From Flavobacteriia bacterium (GTDB taxonomy: Bacteria; Bacteroidota; Bacteroidia; Flavobacteriales_D; Crocinitomicaceae), in contig JACPDW010000015.1 of NCBI GenBank assembly GCA_016183815.1, forward strand, positions 1 to 64,000: a stretch of DNA of 64,000 bases. Reading direction: 5' to 3'. A program made the translations under genes and the position numbers. The notes under the pieces are model-generated. The model saw only the letters and a program-made list of their open reading frames with translations, ran no database searches and was not told where the DNA came from. Positions 4,608-64,000 of the stretch are shown in pieces (positions within the stretch are counted from its first letter, which is position 1; every line of letters begins with the position of its first letter).

Positions 4608-5511
4608 TGTTTACCACATACCGGCTCTTTTAGAAGAATGTATTTCTGGTTTAGAAATAAATCCTCATGGTATTTATGTGGACGTAACTTTTGGTGGCGG
4701 TGGTCATTCAAAAGCCATTTACTCACTATTATCCCCAAAAGGAAAATTGTTTGCCTTTGACCAAGATGAAGAAGCCGTTCAAAATAGTTGGACAGCAGAG
4801 AATTTTGAGTTAATCCTCTCTAATTTTTCGTTTGTGAAAAACCATTTGCACTACAGACAAATTACACAAGTTGACGGAATAATTGCTGATTTAGGTGTTT
4901 CTTTTCATCAATTTGACACTCCAGAAAGGGGATTTTCAATTCGGAGCAACGACAAGTTGGACATGCGAATGAATCAAAAGTTAGAACTCTCTGCTTATGA
5001 ATTAATTAATGAATATGAGGAAGAAGACTTAAAAAAAATGTTTAAAACTTTGGGTGAAATTCCTCAAGGTGCTCGAATGGCAAACTGTATTGTCAAAAAA
5101 AGAGCCAGCAAAAAAATTACCTCAACAGGAGATTTAATGGACACTCTTTCTTCTTTTACTCCTGTTTTTAAAGCACATAAATTCTTTGCTAAAGTATTTC
5201 AAGCAATACGAATGGAGGTAAATAAAGAATTAGAACATTTATCTTCTTTCTTGACTCAAACAGAAGAATTAATAAAGCCGGGTGGTCGATTAGTTGTTAT
5301 TTCATACCACTCTTTAGAAGATAGGTTGGTGAAAAATTACCTTAAAAGTGGTAATGTGCAGGGCGAATTAAATAAAGATTTTTATGGGAATGTTGAAAAA
5401 CCATTTAATGAGTTGACAAGAAAACCATTGGTTCCAAATGAATTAGAAATTAATTGCAATCCAAGAGCAAGGAGTGCAAAATGTAGAATTGGTGTAAGAA
5501 ATGGAAAATGA
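4597..5511 (+). CDS. rsmH: 16S rRNA (cytosine(1402)-N(4))-methyltransferase RsmH (MraW)
   Basis: 304 residues from the ATG at 4597 (MTNNVYHIPALLEECISGL), preferred over an in-frame ATG 15 bases earlier because family members start at this N-YH-P-LL motif. The SAM-binding loop is DVTFGGGGHSKAI near residue 30, followed by ADLGVSFHQFD and the C-terminal signature VISYHSLEDRLVKNY. The enzyme methylates N4 of C1402 of 16S rRNA in the decoding centre. It overlaps mraZ and ftsL by 11 bp at each end, indicating translational coupling. Confidence 0.95.
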   Translation: MTNNVYHIPALLEECISGLEINPHGIYVDVTFGGGGHSKAIYSLLSPKGKLFAFDQDEEAVQNSWTAENFELILSNFSFVKNHLHYRQITQVDGIIADLGVSFHQFDTPERGFSIRSNDKLDMRMNQKLELSAYELINEYEEEDLKKMFKTLGEIPQGARMANCIVKKRASKKITSTGDLMDTLSSFTPVFKAHKFFAKVFQAIRMEVNKELEHLSSFLTQTEELIKPGGRLVVISYHSLEDRLVKNYLKSGNVQGELNKDFYGNVEKPFNELTRKPLVPNELEINCNPRARSAKCRIGVRNGK

Positions 5512-5926
5512 ATATGTAAAAGATTCGGCCTCCATTAAGGATGCCTATAATAAAAATAATAAAAATAAAAATACGGAGAAACAAACACACAAACGTGAAA
5601 AAAGCGGACAGTCACTTTTAATTCTTCAATTTATTAATGGAGATATTTTAAGAAAAGACATTGTCGTGAATAATTTACCGTTTATTTTTTTTCTTATTTT
5701 TTTGTGTGTTTTGTTGGTTTCAAAAGTATATTATGGCAAACAATTGACCCAAGAATTAGATGTATCACAAAAAAAATTAAATGCTATTTCAGCTGAATAT
5801 ATTGAATCTAAAGCTCGATTAGAAGAAAAAACCAAAAGATATGAATTGGTTAAAACATTAAACCCATTAGGTTTAAAAGAAACAACAAAACCAGTGAAGG
5901 TTATTAGAATTAAAAAAGAAAAATAA
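5501..5926 (+). CDS. ftsL: FtsL-like cell division protein
   Basis: 141 residues, bitopic membrane protein: a charged, Asn/Lys-rich cytoplasmic N-terminus of about 55 residues, one membrane span (LPFIFFLIFLCVLLVSKVYY, about 59-78), then a heptad-like coiled coil (QELDVSQKKLNAISAEYIES and on). Sequence conservation in this family is weak; the identification rests on topology, size and position between rsmH and ftsI, matching the Bacteroidota FtsL-like family. With FtsB-type partners it would activate FtsW/FtsI at the septum. It overlaps rsmH by 11 bp, and ftsI starts 5 bases downstream. Confidence 0.85.
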   Translation: MENEYVKDSASIKDAYNKNNKNKNTEKQTHKREKSGQSLLILQFINGDILRKDIVVNNLPFIFFLIFLCVLLVSKVYYGKQLTQELDVSQKKLNAISAEYIESKARLEEKTKRYELVKTLNPLGLKETTKPVKVIRIKKEK

Positions 5927-5931
5927 AACAA

Positions 5932-8040
5932 GTGCAAAAAGATAAAAAAGATATTGTTTGGAAAGTGTACCTAATTTATTTTGGATTTTTTTGCCTTATG
6001 CTAATGGTCATATTTAAAACTTTCGCCATTCAAAACGAAGGTGTGTCGAGTGTATTAGAGGGCGAACAATATACCGAAAAAATTCCGACCAAAACAATTC
6101 CAAGATATCCAAGAAAAGGAGAAATTTTAGATTGCAATCGAACCCCTCTATTAACTTCAGTTTCCTCCTTTGATATTTATATGGATCCAACGGTGATTGA
6201 TCAAAAAGTTTTTGACAAAGACTTAGAATCATTGTGTGATAAATTAAGTACACTTTTTCATGACAAATCTAGTCAAGATTATGCATTAATGATAAGAAAA
6301 GCAAGAATTAATAAAAGACGATTTGTAACTATTCAAAAAAGAATAAACAACGAACAACGTAATCTATTACGAACTTATCCTATTTTTAAATTAGGAAGAA
6401 ACAAAGGGGGGTTAATAGATACTGAAGAAATTATTGAACGAAAAAGACCTCATGGTGAATTGTTAAAACGAACTTTGGGATATTATCAAAAAAACAAAGA
6501 TGGTGAGTTGAAAGTAGGAATTGAAGGTGCTTTTCATTCCTATTTAGTTGGTGAGCCAGGTTTAGAAATAGCACAAAAAATTTCTACTGGTTGGAAAAAA
6601 ACAGGTCAGATTGTTAAAGATGCCATCGAAGGGGCAAATATCATTACTACTTTTGATAAAGAAATTCAAGAAGTAGCTCATTCAGAGCTTTATAGACAAT
6701 TGAAAATCAACGCAGCTATCAGTGGGTCGGTAGTAGTAATGGACGTTAAAACAGGATACGTCCGTGCTATGTCAAACCTTACAAGAGTAGAAAACGGTGA
6801 ATACTATGAACTGTACAATCACGCTGTTGGCACCAAAGAAGTGCCGGGTTCTACATTCAAATTAGCTTCATTAATGGCTGCTCTTGAAGACAATAAAATT
6901 GATATTAATTCGAAAGTAGAATCAGCAAGAAGTTACGATTATTTTGGAGAAACGATAAATGAAGCACACAACAATTATTATGGTACAATAAGCATTAAAG
7001 AAGCATTTGAATTGTCGTCAAATGTAATATCAAAAGTTATTTATCAAGCATATAAAAACGAACCAACAACCTTTATTGACCGTTTAAAATCATTCGGACT
7101 CTCTTCTCCACTTGGATTAGACATTGCAGGAGAGCCAGCTCCTACCTTGTATTCCCCGGGTTCACCTCAATGGTGGAGAGGTTCATTGGCTTGGGTTTCT
7201 GTTGGTTACGACGTTCAATTAACTCCAATACAAACATTAGCTTTTTACAACTCCATCGCCAATGATGGTAAATTGGTAAAACCGCAGTTTGTTCAAGAAA
7301 TCGTAAGGGGAACTGAAACAGTAAAATCGTTTCAACCTATAGTATTGAAAAATCAAATTTGCTCCAATTCTACTCTTCAAATACTAAAATCTTGTTTAGA
7401 AGGGGTAATGAAAAAAGGTACAGGTAAAAGACTTCACTCCTCTTACTTCGATATTGCAGGAAAAACAGGTACAGCAGAAATATTAAATGACAATCTTAAA
7501 TATGGAAACAAAGGTGAAAAAAGATATTTGGCTTCTTTTGTAGGGTATTTTCCAGTTAAAAATCCAATTTATTCTTGTATTGTAACCATTACTGCAAACG
7601 GAGACAATATTTATGGTGCAACAGTTTCAGGAACAGTGTTTTCAGCTATTGCAAATAAAGTGTACGCTGGTAGTCTGAAATACCATAAAGCAATAAACGA
7701 AAATGCAATAAAAACTTCTTCATTTCCTAAAACAAAAGACGGAAACAGAGAGGATTTGGCTCGAATATTAAAAAAACTCAGAATTCCTTTTAAAATGGCA
7801 AACGACAATGAGTGGTTGTTTTCAAAAAATGAAAACGAAATGCTTTCCTTTCACCAAAGATTTGTCGGAAAAAAAACTGTTCCAAATGTAAAAGGTTTGT
7901 CAGCAAAAGATGCCGTTTATTTAATTGAAAACACTGGTATGAGTACTAGTATAATTGGAATGGGAGCAGTAAAAAAACAAAGCGTTCCTCCTGGAACACC
8001 AATTTTTAGAGGGGGATTAATTGAATTAACTTTAGAATGA
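5932..8040 (+). CDS. ftsI: Septal peptidoglycan transpeptidase FtsI (PBP3) with C-terminal PASTA domain
   Basis: 702 residues with a GTG start. One N-terminal membrane span (about 9-30) is followed by the PBP dimerisation domain (IPRYPRKGEILDCN-R-PL near residue 57) and the transpeptidase domain. All three penicillin-binding motifs are present: S307-T-F-K (nucleophile Ser307), SSN at 362-364 and KTG at 511-513. The last 55 or so residues (KTVPNVKGLSAKDAVYLIEN and on) form a PASTA domain. The enzyme cross-links septal peptidoglycan in the periplasm together with FtsW. Its stop overlaps the murE start as ATGA. Confidence 0.95.
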   Translation: MQKDKKDIVWKVYLIYFGFFCLMLMVIFKTFAIQNEGVSSVLEGEQYTEKIPTKTIPRYPRKGEILDCNRTPLLTSVSSFDIYMDPTVIDQKVFDKDLESLCDKLSTLFHDKSSQDYALMIRKARINKRRFVTIQKRINNEQRNLLRTYPIFKLGRNKGGLIDTEEIIERKRPHGELLKRTLGYYQKNKDGELKVGIEGAFHSYLVGEPGLEIAQKISTGWKKTGQIVKDAIEGANIITTFDKEIQEVAHSELYRQLKINAAISGSVVVMDVKTGYVRAMSNLTRVENGEYYELYNHAVGTKEVPGSTFKLASLMAALEDNKIDINSKVESARSYDYFGETINEAHNNYYGTISIKEAFELSSNVISKVIYQAYKNEPTTFIDRLKSFGLSSPLGLDIAGEPAPTLYSPGSPQWWRGSLAWVSVGYDVQLTPIQTLAFYNSIANDGKLVKPQFVQEIVRGTETVKSFQPIVLKNQICSNSTLQILKSCLEGVMKKGTGKRLHSSYFDIAGKTGTAEILNDNLKYGNKGEKRYLASFVGYFPVKNPIYSCIVTITANGDNIYGATVSGTVFSAIANKVYAGSLKYHKAINENAIKTSSFPKTKDGNREDLARILKKLRIPFKMANDNEWLFSKNENEMLSFHQRFVGKKTVPNVKGLSAKDAVYLIENTGMSTSIIGMGAVKKQSVPPGTPIFRGGLIELTLE

Positions 8041-9524
8041 GTAAACTTTTAAAAGACATATTAAAAAACATTAATTATTCCCTTTATTATAAAGGTGAAG
8101 AGAGCATTGAAATTCCTGAAATAACAATTGATGAAATTATAATAGATTCTAGAAAAGCCAAACTGAATACTTTATTTGTCGCTTTAGTAGGCACTCAAAA
8201 AGATGGACATGACTTTATCCCTCAAGTACTCGAAATGGGCTGCTCGGTTTATATTTGTGAAAAAAAGATTGAAAACAATTCAGCCTATCAAATACTTGTA
8301 AAAGATTCAAATAAAGTATTAGGAGAATTAAGTGCAAACTTTTACGATCATCCTTCAAAAAAGTTAAAACTTATTGGAATAACAGGTACAAATGGAAAAA
8401 CCACAACTGCAACCTTAGCTTATCAATGTTTTAATGATTTAGGATATAAATCAGGTTTATTATCAACGATTGTGAATAAAATAGGCGAAAAAGAAATTGT
8501 TTCTACACATACAACGCCAAATCCAATTGAAATTAATCGTTTATTGTCATTAATGCTTAAAGAGGGTTGTACTCATTGTTTTATGGAGGTTAGTTCTCAC
8601 GCTATTGTGCAACGAAGAATTGATGGTTTACATTTTGATGTGGCTGTGTTCGCAAACATTACTCACGATCATTTAGATTATCATAAAACATTTGATGAAT
8701 ATATAAAAGCGAAAAAAACTTTTTTTGACACTCTTGATTCTAAGGCAATTGCATTAACAAATCTCGACGACAAAAATGGCTTGGTCATGTTGCAAAATAC
8801 CAAAGCAAAAAAAATGACTTATGCTTTAAAATCACCTGCTGATTACAAAGTGAAAATTATTGAAAATAATTTAAATGGATTAGAATTACAAATCAATAAT
8901 CGTTTTGTTTGCACACTTTTAACAGGTGTTTTTAATGCTTACAACATTACGGCAGTTTATGCAATTGGAGATATTTTAGGTTTAGATCAAATTGAATTAT
9001 TGACAACAATTAGTAAACAAAAAGCAATTAAAGGTCGTTTTCAATCTTTTCAATCCGAATCTGGTATTACCGCAATAGTTGATTATGCCCATACTCCTGA
9101 CGCTTTAGAGAATGTTTTGAAAACCATTCAACAAGTAAAACAGAATGCTTTAAAAAAATCCAAAATAATAAGTGTTGTTGGTTGTGGTGGCGACCGTGAC
9201 AAAGAAAAAAGACCCAAAATGGCTAAAATTGCTTGTCTGTATTCTAATCAAGTGATATTAACTTCCGACAATCCTCGTTCAGAAGACCCTTCAATAATTA
9301 TTAAAGAAATGAGTGCTGGAATAAGCGAACAAGACTATTCTAAAGTATTAGAAATCATTGACAGAGAACAAGCCATAAAAACAGCCTGTTCAATAGCAAA
9401 CAAAGAAGATATAATACTTATTGCTGGTAAAGGTCATGAAACTTATCAAGAAATTAATGGTGTCAAAAATGATTTTGATGACTATAAAATTGTTACAGAA
9501 AATTTAGAAAAAATTAAAAAATAA
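8037..9524 (+). CDS. murE: UDP-N-acetylmuramoyl-L-alanyl-D-glutamate--2,6-diaminopimelate ligase MurE
   Basis: 495 residues. The Mur ligase ATP loop is [12 protein letters not shown] (Lys121). The signature DNPR at residues 411-414 is the meso-diaminopimelate-binding motif (Lys-adding enzymes differ here), so the third stem residue is predicted to be meso-DAP. The carbamylated-lysine region ([17 protein letters not shown]) and C-terminal [10 protein letters not shown] motif are present. The cytoplasmic enzyme adds DAP to UDP-MurNAc-L-Ala-D-Glu. It overlaps ftsI by 4 bp (ATGA); mraY follows after 5 bp. Confidence 0.96.
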
Positions 9525-51793: not shown

Positions 51794-54700
51794 CTATATT
51801 TTACTCAATTTATTAACGTATTTTGTGTTGTTCATTTCCACTACAACATAATACAATCCTATTGTATCTATTTGAAACTCATAATTAGCTGTTCCTTTTA
51901 AAAGTGAATTTTTTTCGAAAACTTTAACAATTTTACCAAGTGCGTCAGTAATATATACACTAATTTTTTCTTCACTATTTAAATTTAATTGGATATTACT
52001 TGTCTTTTCAAAAGGATTGGGATAACACAAAAATGTAAATGATGAATTATTTTCATTCAAATTTAAACCTCCAATTTGTAAAGTAAAAGGTATATCTTTT
52101 GAACATGAATTAATCATATAATGTAAATTACAATTATAAACCCCTGGAGCAGAAAAAAAATGCGTAGGGTCTGATTCTAGCGAGCCTGTTCCATCTCCAA
52201 ATGTCCATTCATAATTGGCATCTATTTGACCATTTGAATGAAAATTAATAATTGAATCTGTTAAAAATATACCTGAAATGTTTACATTAATGTTTAAATC
52301 TTCGACATCTACATCAATAGTATAATATATTTCATCTGTTCCAAAAGGATTGCTAACATTTAAAACTACATAATACGTTCCACTTGTAGTATAGATGTGT
52401 GTAGGATTTTCTTCATAAGAAACGTTCCCATCTCCAAAGTCCCAACTATACATACTTGAATATGATGATGAATTTTCAAACTGAACTACACCATCACATA
52501 GTGTTGAATTTGAATAAGTAAAATTTGCAATAGGATAATTAATCTCACTTAACACAGTTACTTTGTAGTCTTCTGTTTCACCAAAAACGTTTCCAGTTAA
52601 ACATGCTTCAGTTATTATTGTTGGTGAAACTATAACTCTTAAACGCAAATCTGTATTTAAAACTATATTTTCTGACAAAGTAAAGTTTCCGTATGCACTA
52701 TAGTAGTCAATACCACTATCAAGTAATTCATCTGTAGTAAATATACCATCATTGTTTTTGTCTAAATATATAGAAAAATAATTAGGTTCAGATGTATTAT
52801 TAAAATAAATAGAGTAACTATAATTTTCGCCTTGATACAAATCAGTTTCAAGTGAACAACTTAAATCACTATAAGAATATTGTTGTTGTGCATAATTATA
52901 TATGTCAGCAAAATCAAAACTTTGTATTCCTTGATTTTGATTATAAATATTGTTCGGAATACACGCATTGGTTAATGTAGAAATTTGATCAACTAAAACC
53001 TCATCACTTGAAACATTACATCCAAAAGAATTACAAGTGGTTAGAGTAACTGTATAATTTCCAAAATCTGAAAAGACATGATAAGGATTTAATTCAATGG
53101 AAGTTGTTCCATCACCAAAATCCCAAAGATAAGTTGATGGTGAATTATAGCTTTCATTTGTAAAACTTAAAACATTAGAGCAACCATTACTCATATAAGT
53201 AAATTCAGAACATGCTTCACTACTAACATTCATTGTAATGATTATATTTTGAGTGGGCATTAAAGGATCATTCGTATTTATTATTAAAGTATCAATATGG
53301 GCACCTCCTTCTAAACCTAATGAATTGAAGGATAAAACAACTTCTTGGTTCATACCTTGTTCAACATTACCTTCAGACTGTGAAACACTAACCCATTCAT
53401 TATTTGAGTTTAAAGAATAGTTGATAGCATTGAACAAAATCTTTTGATTATTTGTATCTTGAACTAGATAATCATATCCTAAATAAATAACTTTTCCGTT
53501 TCCAAAAGGTTTGTGGCCAACAACTGGATAATTATCATTGTAGTAAGTTATTACATTGACAAAGTCAGGGTCGTAAGTTTCAAGAAAGCTAGTGTTTGTT
53601 GAGGAAAAGAAGATATTTGGTAAGCCCTCAGCTAAAGGATCATTTGGAAATTGATTATTTAAATAATCGTAATAAATACTGTAACTATAGGCGTAATCAA
53701 ATAAACCTAATTGCATTTCTCTGTTAGAATAAGAGGTGCATAAAATAATGTTTCCTCCATTGTTCAAATAATTTTGAATTACATTAGCATAAGATGAATA
53801 ATTTATATAATTCTGATTGTATGGAAAAACAACAACATCTTTATTTTGTAATAAATTTTCTAACTCTGTGGGTGAGGTTGTAGTTGTTAATGTTATATTT
53901 GGATTTTCAAAATTATCTTCAATAATTTCCGTCATATTACTAATTATATTTGAACTTACTCCATTATTATAAAATAAAATATCAGATTGATCAGAAATTA
54001 AATTCCATTCCAAATTGGCTACTCCTGAATTGCTAATAATTACACTTTGATTTGTAGTTGACCCACAAGCATTTAATTCAATATTGATTGCAGTAGGCGA
54101 AATGTTAGCAATTGGTGGCTCGATAGATAAACCTGTTAAACAAATATTCAAAGTTTCATCATTATTAAATAGAGTAAGATTTCCATTTTGATTTCCTAAT
54201 GAATTTGGATGAAAATTGACTATTAAACTATTTTGAGACCACGGAATAATAGAATCAAAAGCAGATACAAGTTCAAATGAAGAATTGTCAATCAAAATAC
54301 TATCAATAATTAGAGTTTTACATCCATTATTAAATACAATTAAAGTATCTTGAGCGTTCCCATTTAAAAAAGTATCTGGAAAATTCAAACAGTTTTCATT
54401 AACAGCAATTTCAGCATCACCATTAATAGTGATATTTGCTTGAATAGAAACAATTAGTTGATTTGGGTCATTAGTATTAATAACAATATTTTCACTATAT
54501 GTTCCAGCATAATATCCTTGTGAAGAAAGCGTTACATAAACTGTACTAGATTCACCCGAATGTAAAGTATCAGATTGATATGAAGAATTGTTTAATAAAT
54601 TTTGAATAACACTTTCGTGAAGAAGAACATTTTGAGTAAGTTTAATATTATTTGAGTCTAAATTTTGCAAAGTAAATCCTATAAAATAAATTTTACCTGA

Positions 54701-57700
54701 ATCTTGCTCTTTGTAAGAAAAACAAGAATAGTCACTATACTCTTCTAAAGTAATTAAATTATTTGAATTATTCACATCATAAATCGCGTTAAAAGTAGTT
54801 TGATTACTTGAATTAAAAGTATTTGGTAACCCGTTAACTAATTCATGACTTGGTTCAGATAATACAACAGGGTATGGATAATCAATTGTTGAACCAGAAT
54901 AACCATTAAATAATTGCAAATCAAATATATTTGACATTGTATAATAATCTTCTGACCCGAAAGCTATTACTTTTTTGCCATTAGATATAAAATTTTCAAC
55001 ACTATTAGTAAGAACTGAATAGTCAAAATAAGTTAAGTGATTTGATGAGGGAAATAATAATATTTCCTTATCTGAAAGTTCGTTAGAAAATTCTGTAGTA
55101 TTTCCATTAAAAGTATATTCTTCAATTGTGATATGTGGATTATTTTGAAGAATTGATAGTAAATTTTGATATTTTATACTGTTGTTTTCAATACCATTTT
55201 TTAAAATTAAAAGGTCGATTTGTTCATATTGATTGCTTTCATTTAAGGTATAAATTAAATCGCCACTTCCAGTATTTGAAATAATTATAGGTACAATTAC
55301 TGAATCACCACAAACTATTGTTTCTTCTATTAAGTTTGAAGAAATATCAACAATAGGTGGATCTTGAACTATAATCTGTTGATAAACAGTATCTGTAGTA
55401 GTGCAATTACTAGTTATAAGTTGAATTGTATATTCACCACTTTGGTTAAAAATATGACTAGAATTAAAATCATTGGATAAAGTACCATCACCAAAATCCC
55501 AAATAGATGAAAAGGCATCTGGGTTGGATGTATTGGTAAATGTTACTTCAGTATTTAAAGGTGGATTTAAATTTGAAACAGAAAAGCTAGCTTGAATTGG
55601 TTCACTAGAATATAATTCTGAACTCCAAGTTGCTGTCCAACCAGAATAGGATTGATAATAATTTGAAGTCCAATGCAGATAAATTTTTCCTGTGTTGCTA
55701 GTTACTGATAAATTATCATAATAATCGGAGCTCCATAATAAATTTGAATTGCCTTCAGAACCATCGTAGATGTATAAATAGTCCTCATAATTCATTAAAT
55801 CTAATTCACTAAAAGTTAATGTTACTGAGGAGGCACAGTCTGGAGCAATGAGTAGTGAGCAATTTTCATTTAATTGATAATTTCCGTCAATTCCACCTGA
55901 ATCGTACAATAAACCAGAAGGATTTGAGGTTTCATTTATACCATTACACATGTTAATAAAATCACTTACTGTAATATAATCAATTTTTGTTATGCTGTCT
56001 TCTCCAAAAGAGTTAAATACTTTTAATTGAACAGTATATGTTCCCAAAGAACTATAGCTTACAATTGGATTTTGATCAGTACTATTTGTAATATTAGCTC
56101 CTTCAAATGTCCAAAGCCATGAAGTAGGAACATGTTGAGAAATATCGAACATTTGAACTGGAGTATTGATATTCACTGTTGGATATGGTGTGTAAAAATT
56201 GGCAATTGGTGGTTCGGTATTTTCAATAAAAAACAAAGTATAATCTTCTGCTTGACCATAAAACAAATTATCACAGGCAGAGGATATTGTATTATAATAA
56301 TCTATCATAAAACGAACACGAAGAGGGGTGTTTAAAGGTATATTTGGAGAGGTGGTAATTGTTCCAGAAATAGTATTAGAATTAGTTTGATCTTCAAAGA
56401 CTAATTCATTTTGTTCAAACAATCCATTATTATTTAAATCTATCCAACAGTTTACATTTACATTTTCGCTGTAATTATTAAAAAGCTGTAATTGGAAAGG
56501 AACGATGTCGCCAGCTACCAAAGTTGTCGATTGAGAGCATGTTAAATCCAAATAACCTTCTGTAGAATTTAAAGTAGAATTATTTATATTACCAATTTGT
56601 ACATTACTAATTCCATAATCAGAGTAAGGATATTCAGTTAGAGGGATACAACTTGTGTTCACTGGACCACCAAAATTTGTTATAGTGATAAAATTTTCTA
56701 CAAATAAAGTGTCACTTCCACTTGTGCCACATAATCCTGATGAAATAGAAATCAATTTCACGTCATATTCTCCTGGATTAAGATACGTATGACTAGGATT
56801 TTCATCAGTACTTATACTTCCATCTCCAAAATCCCAGATAAAAGACCCTGCATTTAAACTTAAATTGTTAAATTGAATGTCAGCTGGAATATAACAAGTA
56901 AATGTATTGTCTGCGGTAAAGTCAGCATAAACCGATGGATCAAATACCCCACCTACTCCAACAGCATACCAAGCATTAGTAACTTGAATCACTTCATTAG
57001 AACAAGCACCAAATAAATCTTCAGCAGCTTGAATAGAGAAATTTCTTGCATCAAAATGATTGCTGTTTGGAGTGAGATAATAAGCTAAATTTCTGTATGC
57101 AATTTTTGCTGCATTTTCAACACCAATTCCATCTACCGTATAGACATCACCTAAATCATTTGTTCCACTACCACCCATTGACAATAAATAAAACCAAAAA
57201 TTTTGAACACCACTATTGTTATGAACTTCATTGGGTTCGTTATAATACAAACCATTATAACAATCTGGATTCATAAATTCGTTTGGATTACTCATGTTTC
57301 TGAATGGGATTCCATTGATATTAAATTGTTCTCCCATTAAAAAATTTGCTGATGATGGGTTTTCAATATAATCAATCACTATTCCAAAAATATCACTAAA
57401 GGATTCATTTAATGCTCCTGATTCATCATAATATTCTAAACCAGCACTATATTCAGTAACCCCATGTGTAATCTCATGACCCACTACATCAATCGAAGTT
57501 AAAGGACCATATTCAACTCCATCACCATCACCATAAGTCATTCTTTCTCCGTCCCAAAAAGCATTTACAAAAGAATAATCATAATGAACATAAGATTTTA
57601 ATGGTGAACCACTATCGTCATAGGAATTTCTATCAAAATTGTTTTTATAGTAATTATAAGTTGCTTGAGTTCCATATTGAGCATCAAGAGCATACTGATC

Positions 57701-58567
57701 GAGACCTGTTAAACTCCAATTAGATGAATTACTAGTAAAATTTGTTGCACTTTCATATTCATACCCATTATTTAAATTGTAGGTGGCAATGAGTGTATTA
57801 TCTAAAGTGGCATCTAAAGTATATTGTGAGGTATTAACTTGGTTACTAACAAAATTCTTCATACCACTATACCCTGTATTGGCTGTTGAAGGAACATCTG
57901 TATGAAGAATTCGTTTTTTTTCATGAATAATTTCTCCAGTTTGAGCATCTACAAACACATAAGCTCTTTTTAGTGGTTTAGCACTATAAATATCAATTTT
58001 ATAACATAGAGAAGTTATCTTTTTCTTTGAAAGAAAACACAAATTCATCTTTTCTTTTGATTCATTCTTAGCTTTTTCTCCACCTTGATAAATCTCAATT
58101 TTATATTTATTTGTTGCTATATCAAAACATTTTTCTTTGCTTAAATAAGGTTGAGAAGAAATACTTGTTATAGGATAATATTCAGCATTTAAAGTGAGCA
58201 AAATATTTCCTTTTTTATGAAGTTGGACTACTCCATTTTCAACTTGAATATTTTTATAGAATTGTTGAAATTTTAAATGCGTAAACCCCTCTTTGTCAGT
58301 GCTTTTTTTAATTAATTTAAAAGAAATGTCCGCTTGATTTATAAAAATATTGTTTAATAACCAAGTATTAAAATCATGTTCAATTACGTTATAATTATTT
58401 TTAAATTTAACGAATTCTACACTTTTTCTTTCTTTGTTAATTCTAACGTAAGCAGAATTATTGACTTGTTTATTGGCTTCTTTTCCTAAGTATTCTTGAG
58501 ATTGATATACTGAACAAAACAACAAAGAAAAAAATAAAAATACCGAGTTAATTGTGGTCATAAGCAT
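51794..58567 (-). CDS. Giant multidomain T9SS-secreted M4 (thermolysin-like) metalloprotease
   Basis: 2257 residues from the ATG at 58567 (58561 also possible); a TTG at 58579 overlaps the -7 element and is rejected. Order: signal peptide; FTP propeptide domain; M4 peptidase (about 240-540) with zinc site H364-E-I-T-H and the downstream Glu in GALNESFSDIFG; PKD; GEVED; PKD; CUB (about 876-990, IYDGSEGNSNLLW); PKD; then two copies of a CARDB-like plus amidotransferase-like module (about 1100-1326 and 1520-1722) separated by a choice-of-anchor-type beta domain; PKD; second GEVED; two PKD; T9SS sorting domain (about 2180-2257). It is a secreted, surface-bound or released endopeptidase. The zinc ligands are intact, so activity is likely. 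Confidence 0.92.
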   Translation of the reverse strand: MLMTTINSVFLFFSLLFCSVYQSQEYLGKEANKQVNNSAYVRINKERKSVEFVKFKNNYNVIEHDFNTWLLNNIFINQADISFKLIKKSTDKEGFTHLKFQQFYKNIQVENGVVQLHKKGNILLTLNAEYYPITSISSQPYLSKEKCFDIATNKYKIEIYQGGEKAKNESKEKMNLCFLSKKKITSLCYKIDIYSAKPLKRAYVFVDAQTGEIIHEKKRILHTDVPSTANTGYSGMKNFVSNQVNTSQYTLDATLDNTLIATYNLNNGYEYESATNFTSNSSNWSLTGLDQYALDAQYGTQATYNYYKNNFDRNSYDDSGSPLKSYVHYDYSFVNAFWDGERMTYGDGDGVEYGPLTSIDVVGHEITHGVTEYSAGLEYYDESGALNESFSDIFGIVIDYIENPSSANFLMGEQFNINGIPFRNMSNPNEFMNPDCYNGLYYNEPNEVHNNSGVQNFWFYLLSMGGSGTNDLGDVYTVDGIGVENAAKIAYRNLAYYLTPNSNHFDARNFSIQAAEDLFGACSNEVIQVTNAWYAVGVGGVFDPSVYADFTADNTFTCYIPADIQFNNLSLNAGSFIWDFGDGSISTDENPSHTYLNPGEYDVKLISISSGLCGTSGSDTLFVENFITITNFGGPVNTSCIPLTEYPYSDYGISNVQIGNINNSTLNSTEGYLDLTCSQSTTLVAGDIVPFQLQLFNNYSENVNVNCWIDLNNNGLFEQNELVFEDQTNSNTISGTITTSPNIPLNTPLRVRFMIDYYNTISSACDNLFYGQAEDYTLFFIENTEPPIANFYTPYPTVNINTPVQMFDISQHVPTSWLWTFEGANITNSTDQNPIVSYSSLGTYTVQLKVFNSFGEDSITKIDYITVSDFINMCNGINETSNPSGLLYDSGGIDGNYQLNENCSLLIAPDCASSVTLTFSELDLMNYEDYLYIYDGSEGNSNLLWSSDYYDNLSVTSNTGKIYLHWTSNYYQSYSGWTATWSSELYSSEPIQASFSVSNLNPPLNTEVTFTNTSNPDAFSSIWDFGDGTLSNDFNSSHIFNQSGEYTIQLITSNCTTTDTVYQQIIVQDPPIVDISSNLIEETIVCGDSVIVPIIISNTGSGDLIYTLNESNQYEQIDLLILKNGIENNSIKYQNLLSILQNNPHITIEEYTFNGNTTEFSNELSDKEILLFPSSNHLTYFDYSVLTNSVENFISNGKKVIAFGSEDYYTMSNIFDLQLFNGYSGSTIDYPYPVVLSEPSHELVNGLPNTFNSSNQTTFNAIYDVNNSNNLITLEEYSDYSCFSYKEQDSGKIYFIGFTLQNLDSNNIKLTQNVLLHESVIQNLLNNSSYQSDTLHSGESSTVYVTLSSQGYYAGTYSENIVINTNDPNQLIVSIQANITINGDAEIAVNENCLNFPDTFLNGNAQDTLIVFNNGCKTLIIDSILIDNSSFELVSAFDSIIPWSQNSLIVNFHPNSLGNQNGNLTLFNNDETLNICLTGLSIEPPIANISPTAINIELNACGSTTNQSVIISNSGVANLEWNLISDQSDILFYNNGVSSNIISNMTEIIEDNFENPNITLTTTTSPTELENLLQNKDVVVFPYNQNYINYSSYANVIQNYLNNGGNIILCTSYSNREMQLGLFDYAYSYSIYYDYLNNQFPNDPLAEGLPNIFFSSTNTSFLETYDPDFVNVITYYNDNYPVVGHKPFGNGKVIYLGYDYLVQDTNNQKILFNAINYSLNSNNEWVSVSQSEGNVEQGMNQEVVLSFNSLGLEGGAHIDTLIINTNDPLMPTQNIIITMNVSSEACSEFTYMSNGCSNVLSFTNESYNSPSTYLWDFGDGTTSIELNPYHVFSDFGNYTVTLTTCNSFGCNVSSDEVLVDQISTLTNACIPNNIYNQNQGIQSFDFADIYNYAQQQYSYSDLSCSLETDLYQGENYSYSIYFNNTSEPNYFSIYLDKNNDGIFTTDELLDSGIDYYSAYGNFTLSENIVLNTDLRLRVIVSPTIITEACLTGNVFGETEDYKVTVLSEINYPIANFTYSNSTLCDGVVQFENSSSYSSMYSWDFGDGNVSYEENPTHIYTTSGTYYVVLNVSNPFGTDEIYYTIDVDVEDLNINVNISGIFLTDSIINFHSNGQIDANYEWTFGDGTGSLESDPTHFFSAPGVYNCNLHYMINSCSKDIPFTLQIGGLNLNENNSSFTFLCYPNPFEKTSNIQLNLNSEEKISVYITDALGKIVKVFEKNSLLKGTANYEFQIDTIGLYYVVVEMNNTKYVNKLSKI

Positions 58568-58576
58568 ATTTTTTAT

Positions 58577-58584
58577 CAAACTTA
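58577..58584 (-). promoter_or_regulatory. Probable -7 element (TAAGTTTG) of the M4 protease gene
   Basis: TAAGTTTG on the minus strand, 9 bases before the ATG at 58567 and 15 before that at 58561, which argues for the shorter reading or a nearly leaderless mRNA. No clear -33 TTTG is seen. Confidence 0.4.
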
Positions 58585-58954: not shown

Positions 58955-59278
58955 GTGTTTAAAACACTCACATATATATTATTATTTATTTTTACACTTT
59001 CTTCTTTTTCACCTAATTTTCAAGGTGTACAATTGTTGAAAATGCCTAATTTTTTGTCCCATTTCAATAAACATCAAATAGAAAATAATGAAGAAAATTT
59101 TTCTATTTGGGAATTTATAAAGGAGCATTATCTTAAAAAAGATAATAATTCGCAGGAAGAACATCATAAATTGCCTTTTAAGAACAAATTCAACCCAAAT
59201 TATTTTCTGTATCTCCTAACTTTTTTAAGTCAATTTGCTTATTTTCTATTTGGAATCCCCCACGTATTTGAATTGTAA
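58955..59278 (+). CDS. Small exported protein upstream of the CzcA-CzcC fusion
   Basis: 107 residues, GTG start. Signal-peptide-like N-terminus (MFKTLTYILLFIFTLSSFSP), then a polar segment with HFNKHQIE and EEHHKLPFK, and a hydrophobic C-terminus (YFLYLLTFLSQFAYFLFGIPHVFEL). I do not recognise a named family, but short His-containing exported proteins directly upstream of heavy-metal RND pump genes are common in Bacteroidota; the HH-KLPFK motif is a plausible metal-binding site. The role is inferred from context. It is 2 bp after the DUF2795 gene and 67 bp before the pump gene. Confidence 0.65.
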   Translation: MFKTLTYILLFIFTLSSFSPNFQGVQLLKMPNFLSHFNKHQIENNEENFSIWEFIKEHYLKKDNNSQEEHHKLPFKNKFNPNYFLYLLTFLSQFAYFLFGIPHVFEL

Positions 59279-59345: not shown

Positions 59346-62300
59346 ATGTTTAATAAAATCATTGCATGGTCAGTTACGAATAAACTATTTGTTATTCTTC
59401 TGACACTTGCTCTCATAGTTTGGGGTATATTTTCTTTAAATAAACTACCTATTGATGCGGTTCCTGACATTACCAACAATCAGGTTCAAATAATCACTTC
59501 TTCGCCCTCTACTGGTGCTGAGGATATTGAGCAGTTTGTGACTTTTCCAATTGAGCAAACGATGGCTACCATTCCTGAAATCGAGGAAATTCGTTCGTTT
59601 AGTCGCTTTGGTTTAAGTGTAGTTACAATTGTTTTCAAGGAAGAAACAGACATTTACTGGGCAAGACAACAAGTTAACGAACGTTTAGTTGAAGCTAAAA
59701 GTTCGATTCCTGGAAATTTAGGAGAACCTTTTTTGGCTCCTTTAAGTTCAGGTCTTGGTGAAATATACCAATACATTGTTCATCCCAAGGAGGGCTACGA
59801 ACAAAAATATAATGCTACTGAACTTCGAACTATTCAAGATTGGATTATTCGCAGACAATTACTAGGCATTAAAGGAGTAGCTGATGTAAGTGGTTTTGGA
59901 GGTCATTTGAAACAATATGAAATTCAAGTAATTCCAGATCAACTCAAACAAATGGGGGTTTCAATAAGTGAAATATTTAAAAGTTTAGAGGAAAACAATC
60001 AAAATGAAGGAGGTGGATATATTGAACGTGAAAACAACACAACTTACATTCGAACACAAGGTTTGTTAAAGTCTAAAAAAGATATCGAATCCATTAAAAT
60101 AAAAGAAAATAAACAAGGTTTTCCTATTTTAATTCGCGATATAGCAAAAGTAGAAATTGGTTCAGCTTTACGTTATGGTGCTTTAACCAATGAAAATAAA
60201 GGTGAAGCCGTTGGAGGTATAGTAATGATGTTGAAAGGAGCAAATTCATCTGAAGTGATAGGTTTAGTAAAGGAGCGCATCGAAGAAATCGAAAAGAATT
60301 TACCACAAGGAATCGAAATTGAGGTGTATTTAGATCGCACTAAATTAGTAAATAACGCCATTTCAACAGTGGTAAAAAACCTAACTGAAGGAGCATTAAT
60401 CGTGATTTTTGTGTTGGTATTATTATTAGGAAACTTAAGAGCTGGGCTAATTGTTGCCTCAGTTATTCCAATTGCCATGTTGTTTGCTATTTCATTGATG
60501 AATTTGTTTGGAGTTTCTGGTAATTTAATGAGTTTAGGAGCGATTGATTTTGGTCTGATAGTCGATGGTTCGGTGATTATTGTGGAAGCGACTTTACATT
60601 TGATTCACGCTAAATCAAAAGGGAAGCTTACTCAAAAAGCAATGAATGAAACGGTGATTTTTTCAGCTTCTAAATTTAGTAATAGTGCCGTTTTTGGACA
60701 GGTAATTATCTTGGTGGTTTATTTACCATTACTTGCTTTGGTAGGAATTGAAGGTAAAATGTTTAAACCGATGGCGCAAACCGTATTATTTGCCATTTTG
60801 GGTGCTTTTATTTTATCCTTGACCTACATTCCAATGATGTCGGCTCTTTTTTTAAGTAAGAAAGTGACACATAAAGAAAATTTTAGCGACAAAATTGTCA
60901 AGTTTTTTGCTGATAAATATAAACCTGCTTTACAATACGTAATCAGAAATCAGAAAAAGGTATTGGTAATATTAGTTAGCATTTTTGTGTTTAGCTTTAT
61001 TTTGTTTTCGAAAATGGGATCTGAATTTATTCCCAATTTGGATGAAGGTGATTTTGCTGTTGAAATGAGGATGTTGCCAGGTACGAGTCTAAGTAAAACA
61101 ATCAAGACTACTCAGAGAGCTTCAGTCATTTTGAAAAAAAACTTTCCAGAAGTTAAAAAAGTAGTGGGTAAAATTGGTACGGCAGAAATCCCAACCGATC
61201 CCATGCCAATGGAAGCGTGTGATTTGATGGTTATCCTAAAAGATAAAGATGAATGGGTTTCAGCTTCTACGAAGGAAGAGTTAGCCGAAAAAATGCAAGC
61301 AAAATTAGAATCATATATCCCTGGCGTTGAATTTGGTTTTCAACAACCAATCCAAATGCGTTTCAATGAGTTGATGACTGGTGCTAAACAAGATGTGGTG
61401 GTAAAAGTGTATGGAGAGGATTTAGATCAATTGGCGTCTTATGCTAAGAAAATCGGACACATTTCATCTAAAATCGACGGCGTTCAAGACTTATATGTGG
61501 AAGAAGTAACAGGTTTAACGGAGTTAATAGTAAGTTTTAATCACGAACAGTTAGCATTTTACAATGTCAGTGTTCAAGATGTTAACGATGTGATTCATAC
61601 TTCTTTTGCTGGAAAAACAGCTGGTTTGATTTTTGAAGGTGAAAAACGCTTTGACTTAGTCGTTAAAAACGATTCTGAGAAACGACAATCTATTGAAGAT
61701 TTGAAAGCATTGATTATAAATACTGACGATGGCAAACAAATTCCTCTTGAATTATTAGCCGATGTGGTCTATAAAATTGGACCAAATCAAATTCAACGAG
61801 ACGATGCTAAACGTAGAGTAATAGTTGGATTTAATATTCGAGGAAGAGATGTAGCTAGTATAATAGATGAATTAAAGCAAAAAATCGAAAATCAAGTCGT
61901 ATTTGAGCCAGGTTATCATACCACTTATGGTGGAACCTTCAAAAACTTAGAAAATGCACGTGCCCGTTTAATGATTGCCGTTCCTGTTTCATTATTACTG
62001 ATTTTTATTTTATTGTACGTTACCTTTAATTCAATTAAACAGGCATTGCTGATTTATACGGCAATACCTTTGGCTTCTATCGGTGGGATTTTAGCACTTT
62101 GGTTACGTGATATGCCTTTTTCCATTTCTGCTGGAGTTGGTTTTATCGCACTTTTTGGTGTAGCAGTTTTAAATGGTATTGTATTAATTGCCGAATTTAA
62201 TTCCATTCTTAAAGAAGGAGAAAAAAACATCTTAAAAGTGATCATGAAAGGAACCAGAGCCCGATTAAGACCAGTTCTTTTAACAGCAATGGTGGCTTCT

Positions 62301-63704
62301 TTAGGATTTTTACCAATGGCGTTATCACACGGAAGTGGTGCTGAAGTTCAAAAACCATTAGCTACTGTTGTAATTGGAGGTCTAGTTAGTGCAACTATTT
62401 TAACTTTATTTATTTTACCTATTTTATATCTTATTTCAAATCGAAAAATAATGATAAATCGAAAAAAAGGTCTGCTGACTTTACTTATTTTACTTTCATT
62501 TTCTTCTTTTAAAGCTCAAGATCCATTGTTTGCTGCAAAACAAATGAATGTAGAAGAATGTGTAAAAATGGCATTGGAAAATAACAAACTGTTAGGGAAA
62601 ACAGCATTGGAAGAACAAAGACAACTTTTTTTAGCAAAAGGTCAATTGGAAGTGCCAAAAACCAATCTGAATTTTATGATGGGACAATTTAATTCTATTA
62701 ATAAAGAGGACAATAATATCTCCATCAATCAGTCTATTCCTTTTCCGACGGTTTATATTCATCAAAAACGATTAGGAAGTATTTTGGCTTCAGATGCAAA
62801 CTTACAACATGAATTGGCTAAAGCATCATTAGCATTAGAAGTTCGTTTGGCATTTCAAGAGTTGATTTGTGCTTCAAAAAGATTAAAAATTTTACAGAAA
62901 GAGGATTCACTTTTTCAATTGATTGGTCAAAAAATGAAACTAAAAATGGAAGTTTCAGAAATCAATACAATAGAATTTTTACTATTTCAAAATCAAAAAA
63001 ACCTGTTGACTCAACGCTTGTCAAAACTAGAAAACGACTATGTAAAAGCACAATACGGCATGCAACTATTAATTGGAATGGAAGTCCTAGTGGAACCCAT
63101 CTTAGGTGATAATGTACTTGTTTTAGTTGACGAAAAGCTACAGTTTTCAAATCATCAATTGTTAAAAACGTATGAAAACAAACTAAACGAATTGAATTTA
63201 CAACAAAAATCGAATAGAAGTGCTTCTCTTCCCGACATTAGTTTTGGATATTTTAATCAAACACTTATTGGGACACAACAAATCAACGGAACGGATGTTT
63301 ATTTTGATGGTTCTAAACGTTTTCAAGGTTTTCAAGCAGGTGTAAGTGTACCTATTATTAATATAGCGACAAAACGAAAAAATCAAGCGATAAATGTGGA
63401 GAAGAGTCAAATTTCTATTGAAAAAGAAGGAGTACAATTGCGTTTAGAAAATGAATATTTACATCGTTATAAAAGTTTTATTTCCTTACAAAATCGTACA
63501 AAAAGCTATCAAGATGAAATCCTTCAAAATAATAAACAGTTGAAATCTAAATCTAATTTGTCTTATCAAAATGGGGAAATCTCCCAAATTGAATGGTTAT
63601 ATACTCAACAATTACTATTGGATTCAGAGCTTGAATTTGTTGAGCTTGAGAATGAAAAAACAAAAGAATACATTTATTTAATCTGGCTTAAAAATCAAAA
63701 TTAG
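59346..63704 (+). CDS. CzcA-CzcC fusion: heavy-metal RND efflux pump joined to its outer membrane channel
   Basis: 1452 residues. Residues 1 to about 1030 are a full HME-type RND pump (LPIDAVPDITNNQVQI, two periplasmic halves, 12 membrane spans). Span 4 carries Asp401, Asp407 and Glu414 (DFGLIVDGSVIIVE), the D/D/E set of CzcA-type divalent-cation pumps rather than the CusA pattern, so Zn/Co/Cd/Ni export is predicted. Residues 1036-1058 (MINRKKGLLTLLILLSFSSF, KAQ) are a typical signal peptide with its own Met; from about 1060 to the end is a TolC/CzcC-like outer membrane factor (MNVEECVKMALENNKLLGKTA, coiled coils). Fusions of this length are known in Bacteroidota. The periplasmic adaptor gene follows after 26 bp. 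Confidence 0.93.
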   Translation: MFNKIIAWSVTNKLFVILLTLALIVWGIFSLNKLPIDAVPDITNNQVQIITSSPSTGAEDIEQFVTFPIEQTMATIPEIEEIRSFSRFGLSVVTIVFKEETDIYWARQQVNERLVEAKSSIPGNLGEPFLAPLSSGLGEIYQYIVHPKEGYEQKYNATELRTIQDWIIRRQLLGIKGVADVSGFGGHLKQYEIQVIPDQLKQMGVSISEIFKSLEENNQNEGGGYIERENNTTYIRTQGLLKSKKDIESIKIKENKQGFPILIRDIAKVEIGSALRYGALTNENKGEAVGGIVMMLKGANSSEVIGLVKERIEEIEKNLPQGIEIEVYLDRTKLVNNAISTVVKNLTEGALIVIFVLVLLLGNLRAGLIVASVIPIAMLFAISLMNLFGVSGNLMSLGAIDFGLIVDGSVIIVEATLHLIHAKSKGKLTQKAMNETVIFSASKFSNSAVFGQVIILVVYLPLLALVGIEGKMFKPMAQTVLFAILGAFILSLTYIPMMSALFLSKKVTHKENFSDKIVKFFADKYKPALQYVIRNQKKVLVILVSIFVFSFILFSKMGSEFIPNLDEGDFAVEMRMLPGTSLSKTIKTTQRASVILKKNFPEVKKVVGKIGTAEIPTDPMPMEACDLMVILKDKDEWVSASTKEELAEKMQAKLESYIPGVEFGFQQPIQMRFNELMTGAKQDVVVKVYGEDLDQLASYAKKIGHISSKIDGVQDLYVEEVTGLTELIVSFNHEQLAFYNVSVQDVNDVIHTSFAGKTAGLIFEGEKRFDLVVKNDSEKRQSIEDLKALIINTDDGKQIPLELLADVVYKIGPNQIQRDDAKRRVIVGFNIRGRDVASIIDELKQKIENQVVFEPGYHTTYGGTFKNLENARARLMIAVPVSLLLIFILLYVTFNSIKQALLIYTAIPLASIGGILALWLRDMPFSISAGVGFIALFGVAVLNGIVLIAEFNSILKEGEKNILKVIMKGTRARLRPVLLTAMVASLGFLPMALSHGSGAEVQKPLATVVIGGLVSATILTLFILPILYLISNRKIMINRKKGLLTLLILLSFSSFKAQDPLFAAKQMNVEECVKMALENNKLLGKTALEEQRQLFLAKGQLEVPKTNLNFMMGQFNSINKEDNNISINQSIPFPTVYIHQKRLGSILASDANLQHELAKASLALEVRLAFQELICASKRLKILQKEDSLFQLIGQKMKLKMEVSEINTIEFLLFQNQKNLLTQRLSKLENDYVKAQYGMQLLIGMEVLVEPILGDNVLVLVDEKLQFSNHQLLKTYENKLNELNLQQKSNRSASLPDISFGYFNQTLIGTQQINGTDVYFDGSKRFQGFQAGVSVPIINIATKRKNQAINVEKSQISIEKEGVQLRLENEYLHRYKSFISLQNRTKSYQDEILQNNKQLKSKSNLSYQNGEISQIEWLYTQQLLLDSELEFVELENEKTKEYIYLIWLKNQN

Positions 63705-63730: not shown

Positions 63731-64000
63731 ATGAAAACAGTACAAAAAACAGCAAGCATCCTATTAAGTTTATTTTTTTTAGTTGCTTGTGGAAAATCTT
63801 CAATAAAAGAAGAAAACAAAGCCGTTGAAACTAAATTAAGTTTAAGCGACCAGCAAATGAAATTCAATGGAATAACTTTAAGTACATTGGAAGAAAAAGA
63901 ATTTGCACCACTCGTTTATGCTTATGGAAAAGTTGAAGTTCCACCGCAGAATAAGACTTTAATTACAGCCAAGTTTGGAGGATTTGTAAAAAAAATTCAC
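63731..64000 (+). CDS. CzcB/CusB-type periplasmic adaptor lipoprotein, start only
   Basis: 90 codons, open to the window edge. Lipoprotein signal peptide with lipobox LFFLVAC (Cys20), then GKSSIKEENKAVETKLSLSDQQMKFNGI and the start of the adaptor barrel (LVYAYGKVEVPPQNKTLITA, KFGGFVKKIH). The G-V-PP-----I-AKFGGFV-KI pattern is typical of RND membrane-fusion proteins. It would link the inner membrane pump to the channel and is the next gene of the efflux operon. Confidence 0.88.
   Translation, partial: MKTVQKTASILLSLFFLVACGKSSIKEENKAVETKLSLSDQQMKFNGITLSTLEEKEFAPLVYAYGKVEVPPQNKTLITAKFGGFVKKIH

Follow-up and report, generated by a model that had tools for sequence, protein, structure and literature searches.

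One frame for an RND pump and its outer-membrane channel: a predicted polyprotein with an internal signal peptidase site in Bacteroidota

Introduction

Does an open reading frame (ORF) that joins an inner-membrane pump to an outer-membrane channel yield one protein or two? This question is raised by a fused czcA-czcC gene in a Flavobacteriia bacterium (Crocinitomicaceae; GenBank assembly GCA_016183815.1, contig JACPDW010000015.1). We analyzed positions 1 to 64,000 of the forward strand of this contig, and refer to this whole stretch of 64,000 nucleotides (nt) as the window. A reading of the DNA letters without database searches (the sequence-only reading) had noticed a complete signal peptide with an in-frame ATG inside the frame. 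It offered three fates for the channel: release by signal peptidase, separate production by internal initiation, or a tether to the pump across the periplasm. Public annotation presents the whole fusion as one gene, "CusA/CzcA family heavy metal efflux RND transporter" (RND, resistance-nodulation-division), and literature searches confined to open-licence papers found no description of the fusion or its maturation. To our knowledge, bacterial polyproteins are unusual. Our data suggest that the frame encodes a polyprotein that signal peptidase I (SPI) would cut between Ala1057 and Gln1058 into a pump and a channel, a reading to which we give a probability of about 0.88.

Results

A single frame holds a pump, a signal sequence and a channel

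The fused frame encodes 1452 amino acids (aa) and has no internal stops (Table 1). TIGR00914, the CusA/CzcA model, matched residues 1-1035 (1164.6 bits; cut-off 701.45), and Pfam ACR_tran matched residues 6-1030. By sequence, the best solved relatives of the pump part were ZneA (4k0e) and then CusA. The OEP family (PF02321) matched two stretches of the tail, the best being residues 1070-1244 (56 bits; cut-off 22). An AlphaFold model of the channel part had a mean predicted local distance difference test (pLDDT) score of 91.9, with lower values of about 60-80 in the signal region. This model aligned with CusC (3pik; Z 27.0, 376 aligned residues, root-mean-square deviation 4.9) and with TolC chains (Z about 24-27). 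Structural comparison thus gave the channel part a two-repeat channel fold with the OEP domain, from about residue 1066. A profile built from 74 relatives of the channel had SilC, OprJ-like and CusC chains as its top matches among solved proteins.

From Met1036 (ATG at 62451), the sequence runs INRKKG-LLTLLILLSFSSF-KA/QDPLF, passing from n-region through core to the predicted cut (slash). The pump-to-channel junction reads MINRKKGLLTLLILLSFSSFKA/QDPLF, with the Ala1057-Gln1058 boundary at 62516/62517 and the hydrophobic core ending at Phe1055. A basic n-region, a hydrophobic core, a small residue at −1 and Gln at +1 are all present. The complete internal signal peptide and the in-frame ATG were therefore as the sequence-only reading had described them; we set the extent at residues 1036-1057, residue 1058 being the first after the expected cut. 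We confirmed the pump-channel fusion with its internal signal sequence as a genuine sequence feature. We infer that metal is the substrate of the predicted exporter.

The fusion is widespread in Bacteroidota

We collected 136 distinct fused sequences, the window's own included. The fused state was set first by tail length and later checked against the channel profile, which matched all 136 tails at E ≤ 1e-5 (74 of these had built the profile). Fused frames in relatives were 1436-1479 aa long, with one contig-cut row of 1421 aa. The fusion also occurs on a complete chromosome (CP012155.1, L041) and on named plasmids, and a locus of the same genus (L007) carries a fused gene 70% identical to the window's. 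These relatives bear on the idea that two ordinary genes only look fused because a sequencing or assembly error conceals a stop or frameshift, a weakness that the sequence-only reading had itself pointed out. The small ORF adjoining the fusion does seem frame-shifted in the window's assembly. Frames of similar length on many contigs, the chromosome and plasmids refute a hidden frameshift in the fusion, and an artefact of this kind is next to impossible.

Within the window's family, a search at E ≤ 1e-60, which lets in other RND pumps as well, matched 135 of 150 genomes; the top-scoring rows among the matches listed were mostly single frames of 1440-1480 aa. Four other genomes of the genus were compared: G061 had the whole fusion, G049 had a contig-cut fusion, and G014 and G034 had distant matches only, so the fusion is not universal in the genus. 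Across the phylum, 294 of 392 genomes matched at E ≤ 1e-150, with fused and split rows both among the matches listed. A contig search from which 80 loci were kept gave a full fused frame in 75, a contig-cut frame in 2 and none in 3. Of 3546 plasmid records with a match, 38 covered at least 80% of the query, and we take all 38 to be from Bacteroidota by their genus names (two of them looked up). Among the plasmid matches listed, six rows with proteobacterial names ended at residues 1034-1042 and three from Hymenobacter ended at residues 1004-1034. Overall, the fusion architecture is widespread in Bacteroidota and is not peculiar to the window's genome.

A small residue followed by Gln is conserved at the junction

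The 136 fused rows were reduced to 115 by shared 5-mers; an earlier set of 104 had been reduced to 92 at 90% identity. Alignment A1, from which the channel profile was built, held 74 of the deduplicated fused rows with the window first. We scored the site as [A/G/S/T/C]-Gln lying 9-21 residues past the start of the ten-residue stretch of highest hydrophobicity. All 115 junctions had a small residue and Gln at the predicted site; under the same rule, of 1322 hydrophobic peaks taken from the pump bodies of these proteins, 27 did. In 76 rows of the earlier set of 92, the site lay 13-17 residues past the start of that stretch. Gln1058 was one of seven invariant columns in A1, and the hydrophobic core of the junction was highly variable by eye. 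If the segment served as a membrane anchor alone, the end of the junction would be expected to drift, whereas a signal peptidase cut would keep the cut residues.

The remaining features of the junction were scored on the same 115 rows. Residue −1, held to A/S/G/T/C by the search rule, was Ala in 79, and residue −3 was A, G, S, T, C, V, I or L in 102. At least two Lys or Arg residues preceded the hydrophobic core in 114. The median uncharged run was 15 aa at the junction versus 19 aa at the pump peaks. By eye, the small residue and Gln were retained in four further fused relatives (L165, L168, L169 and L171, in some of which the junction is longer and rich in Pro or Ser), in 16 of 17 free channels beside split pumps and in all three stand-alone channels of the window's genome.

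According to the Q-rule paper on Bacteroidetes, the residue after the SPI site is Gln in 71% of substrates, averaged over species, and reanalysed data sets contained pyroglutamate where a Gln was exposed (PMC5837995). The junction pattern fits this rule. Release of the channel by signal peptidase, the first of the three proposed fates, is strongly supported by the small residue and Gln in every junction and by the invariant Gln1058. Because the cut site is kept in relatives across Bacteroidota, the parts are very probably made in one chain that is then cut, rather than working as a tethered one.

Several observations weigh against this reading. When a 13-residue window was shuffled (500 shuffles), a small residue with Gln stayed in 62 of 115 junctions on average and in 76 at most; part of the signal thus arises because Gln and small residues are common in that window. 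An earlier wide-window shuffle null (53/92 by chance) was too permissive; the narrow window was used instead, together with the control on pump peaks. Signal peptidase has preferences at −3 and −1, and Phe is not ideal at −3; the window's copy has Phe1055 there, as do 5 of 115 junctions in all. One free channel of 17, that of the split relative L155 (G352), had no Gln after its apparent signal peptide. Equal stoichiometry as a selective reason for the fusion is weakened by the repeated occurrence of split forms. The Q-rule paper did not test inner-membrane proteins for pyroglutamate (PMC5837995).

Pump and channel are separate genes in some relatives

We built a FastTree tree from 165 pumps, of which 136 were fused, 28 were split (10 of them outgroup rows, 35-38% identity) and 1 had another domain. 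Two distant pumps were left out, and the contig-cut L037 and L077 were counted as fused. With the outgroup included, the fused state changed 11 times on this tree, 10 of the changes being forced by starred branches, compared to a shuffled mean of 27. The tree does not rest on a random sample of rows, its outgroup branches were flagged as long, and its deep branches are tentative. We read most of the changes as losses of an old fusion, re-fusion and fission being not always separable.

The split loci were hand-picked from the matches listed rather than sampled at random, and they do not serve to estimate fused:split proportions. Among 23 possibly split loci, 4 proved fused (the four named above), 17 had a channel gene and 2 (L152 and L156) had none in the stretch examined. 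Pumps of the 19 non-fused loci were 51-65% identical, and the channel gene came next in 17 of them, usually with its own signal peptide. In the split forms, the pump stops just after its last helix and the channel restarts with its own leader, mostly within about 160 bases; some candidate channel starts overlap the pump stop by 4 nt. In L105 (Epilithonimonas mollis) and L166, pump and channel share a reading frame but are separated by stops. As split forms recur on the tree, separate pump and channel chains evidently work.

An internal start is not conserved

Initiation at Met1036 could produce a separate channel precursor beside, or instead of, the fusion. The ATG at 62451 is there, with an A-rich stretch upstream, and the channel starts of split relatives lie near the junction position. 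In the window's clade, 12 of 19 deduplicated rows had a Met at the appropriate place, several resembling typical signal-peptide starts; the other 7 had none. Selection on a start codon would be expected to keep it in place among relatives. Across all junctions, an ATG 12-34 residues upstream of the cut was found in 61 of 115, about what chance gives: Met was expected in 46% by composition, random pump windows contained one in 1094 of 2300 cases (48%) and windows lying upstream of pump peaks did so in 814 of 1315 (62%), these control windows being 23 residues long versus a junction average of 19.6. Any of ATG, GTG or TTG occurred in 90 of 115 junctions, and 25 lacked all three. An internal start is also unneeded if the fusion is cut. 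These counts do not bear out internal initiation as a conserved mechanism, and we regard it as improbable. It could happen in the window's gene alone.

A stable tether would not reach

The junction could instead be an uncleaved 13th transmembrane helix, so that pump and channel would stay linked through the periplasm. It holds a hydrophobic segment that is oriented as such a helix would be, and the pump-channel fusion is common in the phylum. The length of the linker argues otherwise. Residue 49 of the channel model (1067 of the protein) aligned with mature TolC residue 1, and residue 48 (1066) with CusC residue 43. The linker from the end of the core at Phe1055 to these first aligned residues is therefore 10-11 residues, about 40 Å when extended. 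Of the 115 rows, 106 fitted the linker-to-helix pattern. In a review, the porter and funnel parts of AcrB measure 40 and 30 Å, and helix H1 of the outer-membrane factor (OMF) sits halfway along a 100 Å barrel, at the equatorial belt (PMC8277102). Summing the AcrB height and the distance to H1, we estimate that a tether would span about 120 Å or more, which a linker of about 40 Å does not reach. Nor would a tether give the invariant Gln any evident function. The new tripartite-pump architecture that a permanent tether would have meant is contradicted by the linker length and the split forms, and a tethered pump-channel is very unlikely.

A proposed maturation pathway

We propose that one polyprotein is made, in which a 12-helix RND pump is followed by an internal cleavable signal sequence and an outer-membrane channel. 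The C-terminus of RND pumps is cytoplasmic, and after the last pump helix the chain would likewise be in the cytoplasm. The internal signal sequence would then act as a 13th, outward-going segment, and the channel part would be exported through Sec. Both the cleavage and this topology are predictions. SPI would cleave after Ala1057, and the exposed Gln1058 would be expected to form pyroglutamate. The freed channel would be inserted in the outer membrane, where it would meet the pump and a separately encoded adaptor to form an ordinary CusCBA-type metal exporter. A single frame would give pump and channel in equal amounts, with the adaptor, needed in excess, encoded apart. The stoichiometry of such exporters is 3:6:3, with pump and channel at 3:3. 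Equal output of pump and channel fits the latter ratio, and a stoichiometric benefit may follow.

Neighbouring genes

The coordinates of the fused gene, its parts and its neighbours are given in Table 1. The downstream adaptor matched TIGR01730 RND_mfp (139.5 bits; cut-off 94.9) and HlyD_D23; a periplasmic adaptor protein (PAP) gene thus adjoins the pump gene, as in tripartite exporters.

The small protein encoded directly upstream belongs to a family of about 130 aa with a conserved His and the motifs HFxEHK, HY, LPFK and IWxPP. It was matched in 78 fetched loci (window included) at E ≤ 1e-3, and in 73 of them it ended less than 400 nt before the pump frame. The window's copy had no Pfam or NCBIfam match and one relative had no Pfam match; by analogy, we presume a possible CzcI-like accessory. 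In the window's copy the usual ending lies in another frame, and the ORF is apparently frame-shifted near its end.

Just past the window, adjoining the metal-export genes, lies a membrane pyrophosphatase (contig 65028-67622; L182 3029-5623). It matched NF001955 with 1232.6 bits over residues 2-736 of 864, and has a long Cys-rich C-terminal tail beyond the profile. On the reverse strand, 51794-58579 encodes a protease of the thermolysin type (M4). It is 2261 aa long, contains PKD, GEVED and CUB domains and carries a type IX secretion tail.

Table 1. Features of the fused gene and its neighbours (window positions unless stated)
Feature	Position	Strand	Basis
Small secreted-protein ORF, directly upstream of fusion	58955..59278	+	Conserved neighbour
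Fused czcA-czcC gene	59346..63704	+	Open frame and family matches
RND pump part, CusA/CzcA family, residues 1-1035	59346..62450	+	TIGR00914
Internal signal sequence, residues 1036-1057; also possible second start, ATG at 62451	62451..62516	+	Basic n-region, hydrophobic core, Lys-Ala c-region
Predicted SPI cut, Ala1057 (62514-62516) / Gln1058 (62517-62519)	62514..62519	+	Conserved small residue and Gln, Q-rule
Outer-membrane channel part (OMF/CzcC), residues 1058-1452	62517..63701	+	OEP, AlphaFold, CusC/TolC fold
Adaptor gene start (CzcB-like, lipoprotein-type leader by eye)	63731..64000, on to contig 64867	+	TIGR01730, HlyD_D23

Discussion

The predicted cleavage would make sense of a puzzling 1450-aa "CusA/CzcA transporter" in the annotation: the protein would have a maturation pathway that can be tested and an exact new N-terminus (Gln1058, pyroGlu-DPLFAAK), which proteomics limited to annotated N-termini would miss. 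It would also make the fusion a phylum-wide bacterial polyprotein that retains a signal peptidase site inside a frame of 1450 residues. The repeated natural pairs of fused and split forms offer a setting for asking what benefit joining pump and channel brings.

A related locus points beyond this one fusion. In L109 (Cyclobacteriaceae; 4938-8696), the same pump is followed by its own internal signal sequence ending in AQAQ and by an unrelated domain of about 170 aa, for which a Pfam search gave no match; the channel gene is separate and lies after the pump frame. Internal Q-rule signal sequences may thus be a general Bacteroidota way to write polyproteins that pair a polytopic membrane protein with an exported partner, a generalization to which we lean only slightly. 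Translation as one chain, separated by ordinary signal peptidase, would fix the ratio of the two partners and where they are made. The pump-channel fusion would then be the widespread case and L109 the second.

The window's system resembles the CusCBA/CzcCBA exporters in its TIGR00914 pump, its CusC-like channel fold and the adjoining adaptor gene, and differs in that pump and channel form one frame with an internal signal sequence. In Escherichia coli, CusC and CusA are separate proteins. The CusA/CzcA and TolC family genes of Bacteroides thetaiotaomicron are also listed as separate (PMC10434189). Split orthologs (such as L105, L153 and L157) have the same pump and then a channel but, unlike the fusion, a stop and a new start at the junction.

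Q-rule SPI substrates, as described in two papers, share the small residue at −1 and Gln at +1 after the signal peptide (PMC5837995; PMC10653852). Word searches of both papers found no CzcA, TolC or efflux, and one "polyprotein" passage, on gingipains. The window's site differs from such substrates in lying inside a 1452-aa frame, behind a polytopic membrane protein.

The nearest precedent known to us is the cytochrome b/c1 polyprotein encoded by fbcH in Bradyrhizobium. There, a polytopic membrane protein and an exported protein are joined via an internal signal sequence that is cut by signal peptidase. Unlike the pump-channel fusion, fbcH encodes respiratory proteins, and both of its products are kept in the inner membrane.

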